In this document: positions 8,505 to 38,479 of the stretch, piece by piece
Layout: each line of letters begins with the position of its first letter
How positions within the stretch are numbered: the first letter of the stretch is position 1
Assembly: GCA_001604135.1 (NCBI GenBank)
Contig: LVAT01000013.1
Location: forward strand, 324,896 to 365,208
DNA from: Clostridiales bacterium Firm_14
GTDB taxonomy: Bacteria; Bacillota; Clostridia; Saccharofermentanales; Saccharofermentanaceae
DNA: 40,313 nucleotides
Direction of reading: 5' to 3'
Notes under the pieces: model-generated
What the model saw: the letters and a program-made list of their open reading frames with translations, nothing else
The model's database searches: none
What the model was told of the DNA's origin: nothing
Position numbers and translations under genes: made by a program

Positions 8505-9430
8505 AGCTGGTTCCTCCTTGCCATGAGCAGGTATAGCACAGCCATTCTGACTGCTACACCGTTTGTTACCTGTTCATTTATTACCGACTGGTCGCAGTCG
8601 TAAACTGCTGTCGGGAGTTCAACACCATGGTTGCAGGGGCCGGGGTGCATAAGGAATGCATCGGGCTTGGCCAGTGCCAGCATCTCAGGTGTGATTGCAT
8701 AGAATTTTGCGTACTCTGCGATAGAGGGGAACAATGATTTCTGCTGCCTCTCGAGCTGTACTCTGAGGCCCATTACAGCGTCAGCATCCTTGATGCAGTC
8801 TGCAACGGAATCAGCGATCCTGACGCCCATGTTCTCAATGCCAATGGGCATCATGGTCTTAGGTCCGTAGACCGATACGTTTGCGCCGAGCTTCTTTAAG
8901 CCGATCGCGTTGGATCTTACAACTCTTGAGTGATAGATATCGCCGCAGATCGCTATATTCTTGCCCTCGAAAGTATCGAATCTCTCATACATAGTGAGCA
9001 TGTCGAGCAATGCCTGAGTCGGGTGCTCGTTCATGCCGTCGCCTGCGTTTACTACGCTTGCCTTGAGGTAAGGCGCGATGAAGTGCGGCGCACCGGATTG
9101 GTTATGTCTCATGATGATGATGTCCGTACCCATCATGTCTATTGTTCTTGCGGTATCAAGGAGCGATTCGCCCTTGTTAACCGAGCTTCCCGAAGTTGAG
9201 ATGTTAGCCGAAGCCGATCCCATGTATTTCGATGCAAGCTCGAAAGAAAGCCTTGTTCTTGTTGAATTCTCGTAGAAAAGCGTAACTACAGACTTTCCCT
9301 GAAGGTGCGATGTCTTCTTGTTGGCAGACGAAATAACGAGCTTCATTGTTTTCGCTGTATCCAAGATCTCCATAATCTCATCCGCGGTAAGTTGCTTCAT
9401 ACCGAGGAGATCTTTACTCTTAAGTCCCAT
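8501..9430 (-). CDS. pyrB: Aspartate carbamoyltransferase, catalytic chain
   Basis: A 309-residue catalytic chain that condenses carbamoyl phosphate with aspartate. The carbamoyl-phosphate motif ENSTRTR is at residues 54-60, the second phosphate contact is in RHNQSGAPHF, HPTQALLDM lies near residue 136, and the aspartate-binding region has MGLRVQLERQQ and HPGPCNHGVELP. No regulatory chain pyrI is next to it, so regulation is more likely through PyrR at the transcript level. It overlaps pyrR by one base and pyrC by four. Confidence 0.95.
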   Translation of the reverse strand: MGLKSKDLLGMKQLTADEIMEILDTAKTMKLVISSANKKTSHLQGKSVVTLFYENSTRTRLSFELASKYMGSASANISTSGSSVNKGESLLDTARTIDMMGTDIIIMRHNQSGAPHFIAPYLKASVVNAGDGMNEHPTQALLDMLTMYERFDTFEGKNIAICGDIYHSRVVRSNAIGLKKLGANVSVYGPKTMMPIGIENMGVRIADSVADCIKDADAVMGLRVQLERQQKSLFPSIAEYAKFYAITPEMLALAKPDAFLMHPGPCNHGVELPTAVYDCDQSVINEQVTNGVAVRMAVLYLLMARRNQL

Positions 9431-9981
9431 TATCCTTCCTCCTCCTTAAGCAGTATTACTCTGTCCTGGCCGTCGACTTCCTTGACTTCAACGTCGATGT
9501 GCTCAGTGATCGCCGTAGGCACGTTCTTGCCCACATAGTCAGCTCTGAACGGCAGCTGCCTGTGGCCTCTGTCGATCAGTATCGCGAGCTGGATGTTCGC
9601 AGGCCTGCCCATATCAAAAATGTTCTCTATAGCAGCTCTTGTCGTCCTGCCTGTGAAGAGAACATCGTCAACCAAGATTATCTTCTTGTCATTTACATCA
9701 AAGGGAATGTCCGTGCCGTTGACCACGGGGTGAGCCGAGAGCATCGAGAGGTCATCTCTGTAGAAAGTGATATCAAGGATTCCCATAGGAACCTTAACGC
9801 CCTCGATCTCCTCCAAAAGCTTTCTGATCCTTGTTGCAAGAGGCACGCCTCTTTTCTGGATACCGATGATGGCAACGTTTTCCAAGCCGTCGTTATGCTC
9901 GACGATCTCATGCGAGATCCTTATGAGCGCTCTTGACATCGCCGCTTCGTCCATCAGTTCATGACCGGGAATTAAGACCAT
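9430..9981 (-). CDS. pyrR: Pyr operon attenuation regulator / uracil phosphoribosyltransferase
   Basis: A 183-residue PyrR, first gene of the operon. The PRPP loop IILVDDVLFTGRTTRAAI is at residues 101-118 and GIQKRGVPLATRI at 40-52; LIDRGHRQLPFRADYVGKN is the PyrR-typical segment near the C-terminus. PyrR binds UMP and then the nascent leader RNA, stabilising the terminator; it also has weak uracil phosphoribosyltransferase activity. The ATG is preceded by AAGGAG with a seven-base T-rich spacer, which lies inside the attenuator terminator, so pyrR translation itself would be blocked when the terminator forms. Confidence 0.95.
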   Translation of the reverse strand: MVLIPGHELMDEAAMSRALIRISHEIVEHNDGLENVAIIGIQKRGVPLATRIRKLLEEIEGVKVPMGILDITFYRDDLSMLSAHPVVNGTDIPFDVNDKKIILVDDVLFTGRTTRAAIENIFDMGRPANIQLAILIDRGHRQLPFRADYVGKNVPTAITEHIDVEVKEVDGQDRVILLKEEEG

Positions 9982-9982
9982 A

Positions 9983-10060
9983 AAAAAACTCCTTCCGCCT
10001 AATCTAAATGTGGCTATGCGCTTATCCGCTTATGCGCCACCGTCCGGCTAAAGAAGGAAT
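9983..10060 (-). terminator. pyr leader attenuator terminator overlapping the pyrR ribosome site
   Basis: On the minus strand ATTCCTTC (10060-10053) pairs with GAAGGAGT (9995-9988), followed by seven T residues up to the pyrR ATG. An inner GTGGC/GCCAC stem (10040-10036 with 10014-10010) sits in its loop. The 3' arm contains the Shine-Dalgarno AAGGAG. Upstream, GTCCGGC (10110-10104) can instead pair with GCCGGAC (10048-10042), and CCGTAAGTG (10099-10091) with CATTTACGG (10069-10061); together these form a competing antiterminator. The structures are drawn by eye. Confidence 0.72.
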
Positions 10061-10091
10061 CCGTAAATGCAATTATATGTTGTTTACAGCC

Positions 10092-10113
10092 ACTTACGGC
10101 CTCGCCGGACCGT
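10092..10113 (-). promoter_or_regulatory. pyrR box: PyrR-binding loop in the leader RNA
   Basis: The minus-strand leader reads TCCGGCGAGGCCGTAAG, close to the conserved PyrR-binding loop of Bacillus-type pyr leaders (TCC-N-G-N-GAGGC then AAG). It lies just upstream of the antiterminator/terminator pair and about 110 bases before pyrR, the expected place. Confidence 0.75.
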
Positions 10114-10133
10114 TTAAAGTTTTGCTGTAATGA

Positions 10134-10162
10134 ATTCTATATTTAATGGTCCGGAAATGCAA
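10134..10162 (-). promoter_or_regulatory. Promoter of the pyr operon
   Basis: On the minus strand TTGCAT (10162-10157) and TAGAAT (10139-10134) are separated by exactly 17 bases. Transcription would start near 10127, giving a leader of about 145 bases that carries the PyrR site and attenuator. Confidence 0.7.
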
Positions 10163-10282
10163 GGAAGATTCTTGGGAAAAATGGGTATTTATCGAGATGG
10201 TGGGGTAAGGCTGGCCTTTTTTGGAGAGGTCCGCTTCTGCGGATTATCGAAATACTCCTCTGGCAGCCCCTAACAAAGGGAA

Positions 10283-10479
10283 TGTATCTCAAAACTCAAG
10301 CAAAGGCCCGCTTGAGATACAGGAAGCGAGCAATATGTATCTCAAAACCACCTTTGGCGGTCTAAGGAGATACAATTTAATCAGCACTGTGTCTCAAAGC
10401 TCTCATTTCGGGCACATTAAGATACATTTCAATGAAGAACTGTATCTCAAATTATCAACTTAACCGCAATTAAGATACA
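10283..10479. repeat. Array of four 39-bp palindromic units at 52-53 bp spacing
   Basis: Units at 10283-10321, 10336-10374, 10388-10426 and 10441-10479 each start TGTATCTCAA (or TGTGTCTCAA) and end with its approximate reverse complement TTGAGATACA or TTAAGATACA. All four are 39 bases long, with spacers of 14, 13 and 14 bases. The arms are conserved, while the 19-base loops and the spacers differ. The array sits between the pyr promoter and the promoter of the plus-strand membrane genes. An 80-codon frame across it is not a believable gene. The rest of 9982-10631 holds only the regulatory sites listed. Confidence 0.85.
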
Positions 10480-10631: not shown

Positions 10632-10952
10632 ATGGAAAATAAGTCTTCAGCAAACAGATTATCGTTGATTGGAATGATAATGGGGATCTTAAGCGCTGCC
10701 TATGGCGCCGTAATGTACCTGTTCGTCTGGCCGATAATGCTGAGCCCTTATAACGGCCCGACAAAAGCGGTCATAGCAGTTGCGGCAGGCATCATCGTCA
10801 GCATTGTTGCGTTGGTTATATCTAAGACCGCGCAGAAAAACGGAGCCAATTCCAAGACTTTTCAAGCAGGCATAGGCACAAGTACAGGCGGGATCATAGT
10901 CTGCGCTGCGCTGATGGCCATTGTGCTTGCCTATATAAATTTCGTTTTATAA
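10632..10952 (+). CDS. Small three-helix membrane protein
   Basis: A 106-residue hydrophobic protein of unrecognised family. Hydrophobic segments lie at about residues 10-32, 43-63 and 82-104, joined by short loops; the polar link KTAQKNGANSKTF at about 65-77 is likely cytoplasmic. The N-terminus MENKSSANR is polar with no signal peptide, suggesting an integral membrane protein of the DUF4190/DUF6142-like small type, although I cannot name a family. GAGGTG lies 7 bases before the ATG. It shares a promoter with the next gene, which starts 34 bases downstream. Confidence 0.7.
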   Translation: MENKSSANRLSLIGMIMGILSAAYGAVMYLFVWPIMLSPYNGPTKAVIAVAAGIIVSIVALVISKTAQKNGANSKTFQAGIGTSTGGIIVCAALMAIVLAYINFVL

Positions 10953-18334: not shown

Positions 18335-18404
18335 AAGTGTTCCTATAGTTTTGATATGTTGATTATAACTTATTCAGAAGATTTTGAGGCCGTGTTTGTT
18401 CCGC

Positions 18405-18715
18405 AACTCTATAAAATCGAACTACCAGTACGATTTTGTCGGTTTTAGATCCGAGAGCGTGTTGCTGCCCAACTCTATAAAATCGAACTACCAGTACGAT
18501 TTTGTCGGTTTTAGATCTGAGCCAGCGTTCGTCCCCAACTATATAAAATCGAACTAACGGTACGATTTTGTCGGTTTTAGTCTCAAAACCCTGAAAACTG
18601 AACTACCGGTTCGATTTTATATATTTCAGAAGAAGTACATAGAGGCCTTGTTCACTTTGTCGGTTTTTGATAGATAAAGCCCCCAAATCGAACTGTCGGT
18701 TCGATTTTAGGGGCT
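18405..18715. repeat. Array of palindromic repeats with 66-bp period
   Basis: Three long units at 18405-18451, 18471-18518 and 18537-18582 start AACTATATAAAATCGAAC or a close variant and end in CGATTTTGTCGGTTTTAG; they begin exactly 66 bases apart. Two shorter, more diverged units follow at about 18595-18625 and 18679-18715. Within each unit AAAATCG pairs with CGATTTT, and the last unit is a perfect nine-base palindrome AAATCGAAC/GTTCGATTT. The 408-base gap between the hydrolase gene and the ABC permease gene holds nothing else that I can see. Confidence 0.85.
18679..18715 (-). terminator. Long hairpin after the ABC transporter genes, possible terminator
   Basis: On the minus strand AGCCCC and the nine-base AAATCGAAC arm pair with GTTCGATTT and GGGGCT. 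The stem is very strong, and it lies 27 bases past the permease stop, but only a weak TTTAT follows. It is also the last unit of the repeat array. Confidence 0.45.
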
Positions 18716-38308: not shown

Positions 38309-38479
38309 AAAACTTCAGGCAAAACTTCAGGCAAAACTTCAGGCAGCGCCTGGAATTCCGCCGGGAATTCGGTCGTTTTAACCCCAAACTTCAGGCGGCG
38401 CCTGGAATTCCGCCGGGAATTCGGCTGTTTTAACCCCAAACTTCAGGCAAAACTTCAGGCGGCGCCTGGAATTCCGCCG
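38309..38479. repeat. Palindromic repeat array with 52-bp period and 12-bp tandem repeats
   Basis: Three tandem copies of AAAACTTCAGGC (38309-38344) lead into units that each contain CAGGCGGCGCCTG (a palindrome around a central G) followed by GAATTCC-GCCG-GGAATTC (a second hairpin). Unit starts (AGGC-GGCGCC) are at 38341, 38393 and 38457; the last is delayed by 12 bases, one extra AAAACTTCAGGC. Related units in reverse orientation lie at 21778-21895. It fills most of 38220-38499, the gap between the 38500 gene and the glycosyltransferase. No gene is seen here. Confidence 0.9.

Follow-up and report, generated by a model that had tools for sequence, protein, structure and literature searches.

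Array at the pyrR locus

The window, which is the whole stretch of 40,313 nucleotides that was analysed, contains a short palindromic array in the gap between two divergent genes. The features of this locus are as follows.

9430–9981, minus strand: pyrR (named from sequence), the left neighbour, heading a pyr operon
10283–10479, no strand assigned: the whole array of four palindromic units, about 197 bp, beginning with TG and finishing with CA
10283–10321, no strand assigned: unit 1, both half-sites identical to the consensus
10336–10374, no strand assigned: unit 2, with AGGAGATACA as the right half-site
10388–10426, no strand assigned: unit 3, with TGTGTCTCAA as the left and TTAAGATACA as the right half-site
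10441–10479, no strand assigned: unit 4, with TTAAGATACA as the right half-site
10632–10952, plus strand: a predicted membrane protein of 106 aa, the right neighbour, with a weak Pfam match under the curated cut-off

The array lies 302 bp from the start of pyrR and 153 bp from the start of the 106-aa ORF. Units 1 to 4 deviate from TGTATCTCAA-N19-TTGAGATACA by 0, 2, 2 and 1 mismatches, and the pattern of the array found no match in 100 dinucleotide shuffles (chance expectation 0), which confirmed the four 39-bp palindromic units of the original prediction. The loops are 19 bp, the spacers are 14, 13 and 14 bp, and the start-to-start distances are 53, 52 and 53 bp. These values agree with the 19-base loops, 13–14 base spacers and 52–53 bp spacing that had been read from the sequence. 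The arms had been called conserved, which is true overall, but the right arm is exact in unit 1 only and the left arm of unit 3 is a variant. The setting had been described as a divergent promoter region. This is correct for the window, with pyrR on the minus and the 106-aa ORF on the plus strand, but it is not the rule, because 10 further arrays exist in the genome.

When the window was searched with Rfam, a tRNA was the sole match at gathering scores and none fell on the array. The leader upstream of pyrR (window 9982–10180) looks strongly conserved in the 11 loci that were printed out of 30 and is probably a regulatory leader; no Rfam family reached the gathering score for it.

Copies in the source genome

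The genome containing the window (G000) is a 3.12-Mb draft of 45 contigs and is 99% complete. At three or fewer mismatches, 40 units were found genome-wide, all inside 11 arrays; with the pattern reversed as a control, there were none. Under relaxed criteria, the fetched G000 loci yielded 46 units, with four units in each of ten arrays and six in the remaining one; L017 also has two weak matches (4 and 5 mismatches), which were excluded from this count. The six-unit array is L022, in which two units share an identical loop, and in both L019 and L025 one extra half-site stands directly past the last unit. All 35 start-to-start distances within the 11 arrays are 52 bp (n = 15) or 53 bp (n = 20), with a mean of 52.57 bp. 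The period stays at 52 or 53 although loop length ranges over 18–20 bp and spacer length over 12–14 bp.

The half-site consensus is 10–11 bp long, TGTRTCTYAA usually followed by A, and occurs eight times per four-unit array, as four inverted pairs. Exact matches to TGTRTCTYAA numbered 99 in G000 and 21 in the reversed control, and about 33 of the matches are away from arrays by our count. A further half-site cluster outside the arrays was sought in G000 as a mark of the gene for a binding protein, and none was found.

Several G000 arrays are diverged copies of one element of about 197 bp. Overall identity was 79% for L016/L025, 78% for the window array and L021, 73% for L017/L020 (inverted) and 71% for L016/L018, and the alignment scores of the pairs were 182–251, compared with a maximum of 149 when the loops were shuffled. 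Between the window array and L021, the identities were 78/80 in arms, 48/75 in loops and 25/39 in spacers; the corresponding values were 73/80, 39/72 and 27/39 for L017 and L020, and 73/80, 40/74 and 23/37 for L016 and L018. The contrast was weaker for L016 and L025 (69/80, 54/74 and 30/40). The loops of the copies diverged by point changes and small indels. The flanks look unrelated in both pairs printed, and by eye the window array and L021 cease to be similar where the arrays end. Loops of the same array are alike in the same direction (mean scores 5.2–5.6 for loops one to three units apart, against a background of 1.2), thus the array is a direct tandem repeat.

Copies at loci that are empty in relatives, as expected for a transposon or MITE, were observed at four loci. 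The array behind the citrate synthase gene is missing in G020, G083 and G005. The array of the L025 locus is missing in G083, G084, G020, G005 and G044 when their sequences are read, and also in G043 and G090 as judged by gap size. The array of the L017 locus is missing in G044, G083, G084 and G090 (read), and that of the L020 locus in G083. By our subtraction, the stretch present only in G000 exceeds the array by 20–90 bp at these four loci, so the ends of the insertions are not defined exactly by these empty sites. The L018 and L016 loci are too divergent in relatives for a call of presence or absence. At the pyrR loci of 29 other genomes, one of which had just 215 bp upstream, no array with a period of 49–56 bp was present; the intergenic DNA there is too different, so these loci offer no clean empty site.

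Half-sites as probable double-stranded DNA sites

T3, T5, C6 and T7 are invariant over 92 half-sites. Among the 46 units, position 4 (A/G) is changed in the left arm only in 8, in the right arm only in 10 and in both arms in 0; position 8 (C/T) is changed in the left arm only in 8, in the right arm only in 12 and in both arms in 1. Changes in the would-be stem of a structured RNA are therefore not compensated (18 one-sided versus 0 in both arms, and 20 one-sided versus 1 in both). RNA pairing should give compensation or a left-right bias, so one-sided changes balanced between left and right point to a double-stranded protein site.

Of the uses suggested originally, a cluster of small hairpin RNAs is accordingly disfavoured, because the arm changes are uncompensated and occur at about equal frequency on the left and on the right. 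An RNA element was rejected on these changes together with the lack of an Rfam match at gathering scores.

Arrays with other half-sites

A degenerate pattern was searched in 85 genomes of the genus. Matches were found in 36 of the 85, mostly as a single match and close to the chance level, and repeated or clustered matches were found in G044, G046, G050, G084, G090, G020 and G008. G044, G084, G090 and G008 belong to the same genus as G000. In the fetched stretches of relatives, arrays built in the same way but with different arms were detected, including TGTATCTGAA, TCTATCTTAA, TGTATAATTA, TGTGTAATTTT, TGTGCAATTG, GTATCCCAAA and more. This detection skipped the redundant loci L001–L015, L026 and L028–L033, and when its 394,616 bases were shuffled once, the array detector gave 0 matches. 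G000 itself has other families, TACCGTCAAAA, TGTTGCAAAA, AATTCCGGA and TCGTACGTTTT at 62–63 bp and ACAGACAAAA and TTACGGATAA at 73–74 bp. The pattern search of the genome and its relatives that had been proposed as a check thus yielded 11 arrays in G000 and variant arrays in the same genus. The units are neither scattered at random, single positions, as all 40 lie in the 11 arrays, nor absent from relatives, as variants occur in the same genus.

Between the ACT-domain gene and rdgB, G000 has four units of TGTATCTCAA and G083 has a TCAACTTTTT array; other palindromic repeats are seen by eye at this locus in G020, G044 and G090, and the gap is short in G005 and G043. A two-unit TCTATCTTAA array is orthologous in G044, G084, G090 and G020. 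Its invariant columns are 32/36 in arms, 13/38 in loops and 4/14 in spacers; the comparison covers a single array in four species, in which the left flank beside the gene end is also conserved. In a GTDB scan, pairs of TGTATCTSAA were found in 22 stretches, 12 with an array and 10 with a single match and without an array.

On contig 16 of G000, a protein of 1027 aa with a TIR / ThsB-like domain (L020:876–3959) adjoins a TCGTACGTTTT array.

Helical phasing

Periods were surveyed openly from 30 to 130 bp, with exact 8-base arms, in 2,407,878 bases (2.41 Mb), from which L026, L084–L091, L095, L099, L104, L106–L108, L325–L329 and sequence duplicates were omitted. The scan gave 59 matches, which are not 59 separate arrays since several come from one array, at 50–53 (19), 62–64 (13), 72–74 (15), 83 (2), 89–90 (2), 105 (4) and 124–126 bp (4), with nothing between. 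Forty-nine of the 59 are thus at 50–53, 62–64, 72–74 or 83 bp, and the 8 at 105 or 124–126 bp are double periods. The matches at 89 and 90 bp are irregular arrays, one of which (L321) has a first distance of 53. When mismatches were tolerated (1,659,266 bases), matches were found at 51–53 (12), 61–64 (13), 66 (1), 72–74 (9), 89 (1), 105 (7), 115 (1) and 125 bp (1).

The periods of 32 families were compiled by hand with related arms merged, and 30 of them deviate by at most 2 bp from a multiple of 10.5 bp (38% expected). The Rayleigh R of the 32 families was 0.857 against a maximum of 0.58 in 100,000 uniform simulations, where the null, uniform over 49–85 bp, is arbitrary and simple, the five-turn class was found first and steered the choice of fetched loci, and the families are not independent because those of one period class may share ancestry. 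The best scanned pitch was 10.7. The exceptions are one 66-bp family (window 18400–18580 and L135 of G020) and one 50-bp family. The arrays are nearly always spaced by whole helical turns, in families with near-integral periods. The proposal that a period of about five turns places all sites on one face holds, with the mean of 52.57 bp over 35 intervals, and the other families are near six, seven and eight turns.

In 400 kb from G017, G001, G064, G051 and G042 (same genus), no array was found at periods of 30–130 bp (Markov control 0), and because this sample held no array the phasing was not replicated on held-out data or new families. Outside the sample, G042 does carry an array with a 64-bp period, which lies at its pyrR locus (L190). 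Likewise, 200 kb of one G083 contig gave no array, and an array is present at another G083 locus (L240). The E. coli K-12 control (200 kb) gave 0 arrays, and 77 kb from other families of the order gave a single match, located in a run of N. When applied to the same stretches, Tandem Repeats Finder additionally reported the 66-bp family (window and G020), a 59-bp repeat in G020 and a 46/54-bp repeat in G046, as well as many repeats of 36–72 bp whose periods are multiples of three and which are probably coding.

Three other repeats of the window were noted. The intergenic tandem repeat at 18400–18580 (66-bp period, 2.8 copies) has a palindromic core AAAATCG...CGATTTT. A similar repeat is present in G020 (L135 14534–14717), the period is not a whole-turn one, and a 20-base piece of the window repeat matches at a single place in G000. 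A 53-bp period tandem repeat of 1.9 copies lies between ORFs at 1838–1940. At 38334–38449, also between ORFs, a 52-bp tandem repeat carries GCCTGGAATTC and CTTCAGGC motifs and resembles by eye the 64-bp array of G020 (L136).

Neighbouring genes

The neighbours of the TGTATC arrays, with names taken from sequence only, include pyrR, MATE transporters, a sigma factor, citrate synthase, rdgB and lipoproteins. They are functionally unrelated, unlike the targets expected for the operator of a regulon, and the settings are convergent, tandem and divergent. A regulon was therefore rejected. When all array families were pooled, 13 of 31 gene gaps were convergent, 13 tandem and 5 divergent. Orientations were set by hand, the convergent call for L016 disregards a doubtful 180-aa ORF (12/31 otherwise), and L110 and L139, which have a neighbour on one side only, were omitted from the 22 other-family sites. 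Convergent gaps were enriched, with 13/31 compared with 103/641 gaps by crude ORF calls (Fisher p = 0.0008).

Forty neighbour proteins were scanned with Pfam, 36 of the 42 beside other-family arrays and 4 of the 22 beside TGTATC arrays. No DNA-binding family stood out among these 40; HTH_3, GntR and AraC regulators were each seen once, and a TFIIB-type zinc ribbon and DHH proteins were each seen twice.

Transposase genes and extrachromosomal DNA

No RAYT/Y1 transposase (PF01797) was detected in G000 (99% complete), G008, G020, G044 (77%), G084 or G090 (89%), and one each was detected in G046 and G050. A RAYT/REP system was rejected, the Y1 transposase being missing from six array-bearing genomes. 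An insertion sequence of the rve type was rejected as well; the rve domain (PF00665) is absent in G000, and 29 of 30 fetched rve loci have no array with a period of 49–56 bp. The single array among the 30 rve loci is a TTTTCTATCA array with a 52-bp period in G063 (L288, 579–670).

A search of 50,697 phage records and 72,556 plasmid records gave no match to the window array. In IMG/VR, four stretches contain a match, and in none of them is it surrounded by an array. A phage or plasmid origin was rejected.

Discussion

The window array is one copy of a dispersed element of about 197 bp, which would serve as a platform of eight half-sites in four inverted pairs. The probable ligand of each pair of half-sites is a dimeric protein that binds DNA sequence-specifically. 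With a period of 52.57 bp (5 × 10.5), the dimers would sit on one face of the helix, so that once bound they could contact each other, or bend or bridge the DNA. The element sits between unrelated genes, in many cases close to their 3' ends, and its copies differ between close species. The data suggest that the arrays are docking platforms for putative proteins. Our best guess for their role is chromosome topology or architecture at the ends of transcription units, similar to that proposed for BIMEs, and they may also act in segregation. What can be said most safely is that a dispersed intergenic element, a four-unit platform of phased palindromic sites, combines traits of a mobile repeat (copies and empty loci) with those of a maintained protein-binding array (half-site conservation, in the copies as well as in one orthologous array, and phasing).

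BIMEs and REPs are bound by gyrase, IHF or Pol I, and BIMEs have been proposed to act in chromosome topology or architecture at the ends of transcription units. The 11 arrays located between genes resemble them as dispersed palindromic intergenic units. However, the units described here are 39 bp long, keep a strict phase of 52–53 bp and have TGT...ACA ends; GTAG, CTAC, CGTC or GACG occurs within 8 bp of the unit end in only 1 of 46 units on either strand, and G000 has no Y1 transposase. The REP families with GTAG or CGTC tags are palindromic units in intergenic DNA, often forming dimers or tandem groups, with many families that are unevenly distributed between species, and the GTAG families have stems of 5–13 bp and loops of 2–20 bp (PMC3733652). 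REPINs are extragenic palindromic repeats, dispersed in the genome, which are subject to selection and spread as one unit, and they are discussed with others as hairpin elements tied to Y1 transposases (PMC3116915). Some two-unit arrays of the relatives resemble by eye one long imperfect hairpin, as in REPINs, but the G000 units are direct repeats rather than an inverted doublet, and no Y1/RAYT gene was found in G000. The favoured view is that the arrays are BIME-like in kind but outside the REP/BIME family if RAYT and GTAG are taken as its defining features.

The arrays share with CRISPRs the regular spacing of repeats with variable parts. In the arrays, however, the constant parts are inverted half-sites of 10 bp and the variable parts are the loops and spacers of 12–20 bp, and the loci are 11 and dispersed. 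A CRISPR had been dismissed in the original prediction, and this is right on anatomy alone; no cas-like neighbour was seen by eye. Plasmid iterons and centromere arrays also hold several protein sites in helical phase, but the arrays here are dispersed between chromosomal genes, and no rep or par gene was recognised among the neighbours read or scanned. No such arrays are described by title or abstract start in the literature searched, whose coverage leaves out most subscription journals.

Four other readings were weighed against protein platforms. The main rival is a MITE-like, non-autonomous transposable element of about 197 bp with TG...CA ends, whose internal repeats would be binding sites of a transposase; the arm families would then be ends read by different transposases, and the phasing would reflect transposase assembly. 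Such an element would account for array copies at loci where relatives have none, for copy similarity that ends at the array ends, for the TG...CA termini and for families that vary between species. Conserved half-sites are also expected for transposase sites, and the TTTTCTATCA array is about 1 kb or less from an rve-domain gene. Yet no recognisable transposase was found among the neighbours of TGTATC arrays that were read or scanned, the rve domain is absent from G000 and the Y1 transposase from G000 and five other array-bearing genomes, and just one of the 30 rve loci has an array with a period of 49–56 bp. The search for a related autonomous element with the same ends covered half-site clusters and the rve and Y1 domains, and in G000 it gave no further cluster and neither domain. 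The half-sites of one array have also been held in place across four species. Target duplications are not obvious by eye at the 11 arrays, where the copies have diverged and the observation would be uninformative if they are old. Mobility of this kind is a serious possibility that we nevertheless consider rather unlikely. A functionless, decaying tandem repeat would fit the units that are alike as direct repeats within an array, the loop similarity above background and the variable unit number (six in L022). It has little probability, because conservation of the half-sites exceeds that of loops and spacers by far in three of the four copy pairs and to some extent in the remaining pair, and all 35 intervals stay at 52 or 53 bp despite loops of 18–20 bp and spacers of 12–14 bp.

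A chain of hairpin RNAs, acting as an sRNA cluster, a 3'-UTR stabiliser or a protein sponge, is suggested by the palindromic units with their 10-bp stems and by the enrichment of all array families in convergent-gene gaps. Against it, the right arm changes as often as the left and without compensation, whole-turn spacing would be unnecessary for an RNA, and Rfam reports nothing at the array; we regard it as very improbable. The lowest probability goes to the idea that the array is a multi-site operator for its two divergent neighbours, the pyr operon and the 106-aa ORF. The array does lie between two divergent genes, and its sites are palindromic and phased, but it recurs 10 more times near unrelated genes in convergent, tandem and divergent settings and is absent from all 29 other fetched pyrR loci. 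The earlier idea of a multi-site operator therefore survives in its general part, a multi-site protein-binding element, and not as an operator of the flanking genes, which is unlikely because the 11 arrays adjoin unrelated genes in all orientations. We give an even chance to the reading of dispersed platforms for putative dimeric DNA-binding proteins, BIME-like in kind and without a Y1/RAYT transposase or a GTAG tag.

The constraint on these platforms looks like that of double-stranded DNA, with whole-turn spacing, uncompensated half-site changes and half-sites kept over loops. If a protein or protein family reads the sites, it would constitute a new sequence-specific system for architecture or mobility, and the half-sites, which differ between sister species, would offer a direct test of how recognition evolves. 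More tentatively, part of the genus may carry a new class of chromosomal platforms, with many palindromic-array families per genome, each with its own half-sites and with a near-integral period of 5, 6, 7 or 8 turns, and with different families at the same intergenic site in sister species. If true, this would imply a fast-evolving family of DNA-binding proteins, each member with its own platforms, which shapes the chromosome or moves the platforms.

Mixed arrays were also seen in the relatives. Several loci of G044 (L064–L069), some of them near-identical by eye, have mosaic arrays composed of one TGTATCTGAA, two TGTATAATTA or TGTGCAATTG and two TGTGTAATTTT units. At an orthologous locus of G044 and G090 (L068/L077), the G090 unit looks by eye like a recombinant of TGTGTAATTT and TGTATAATTA arrays.
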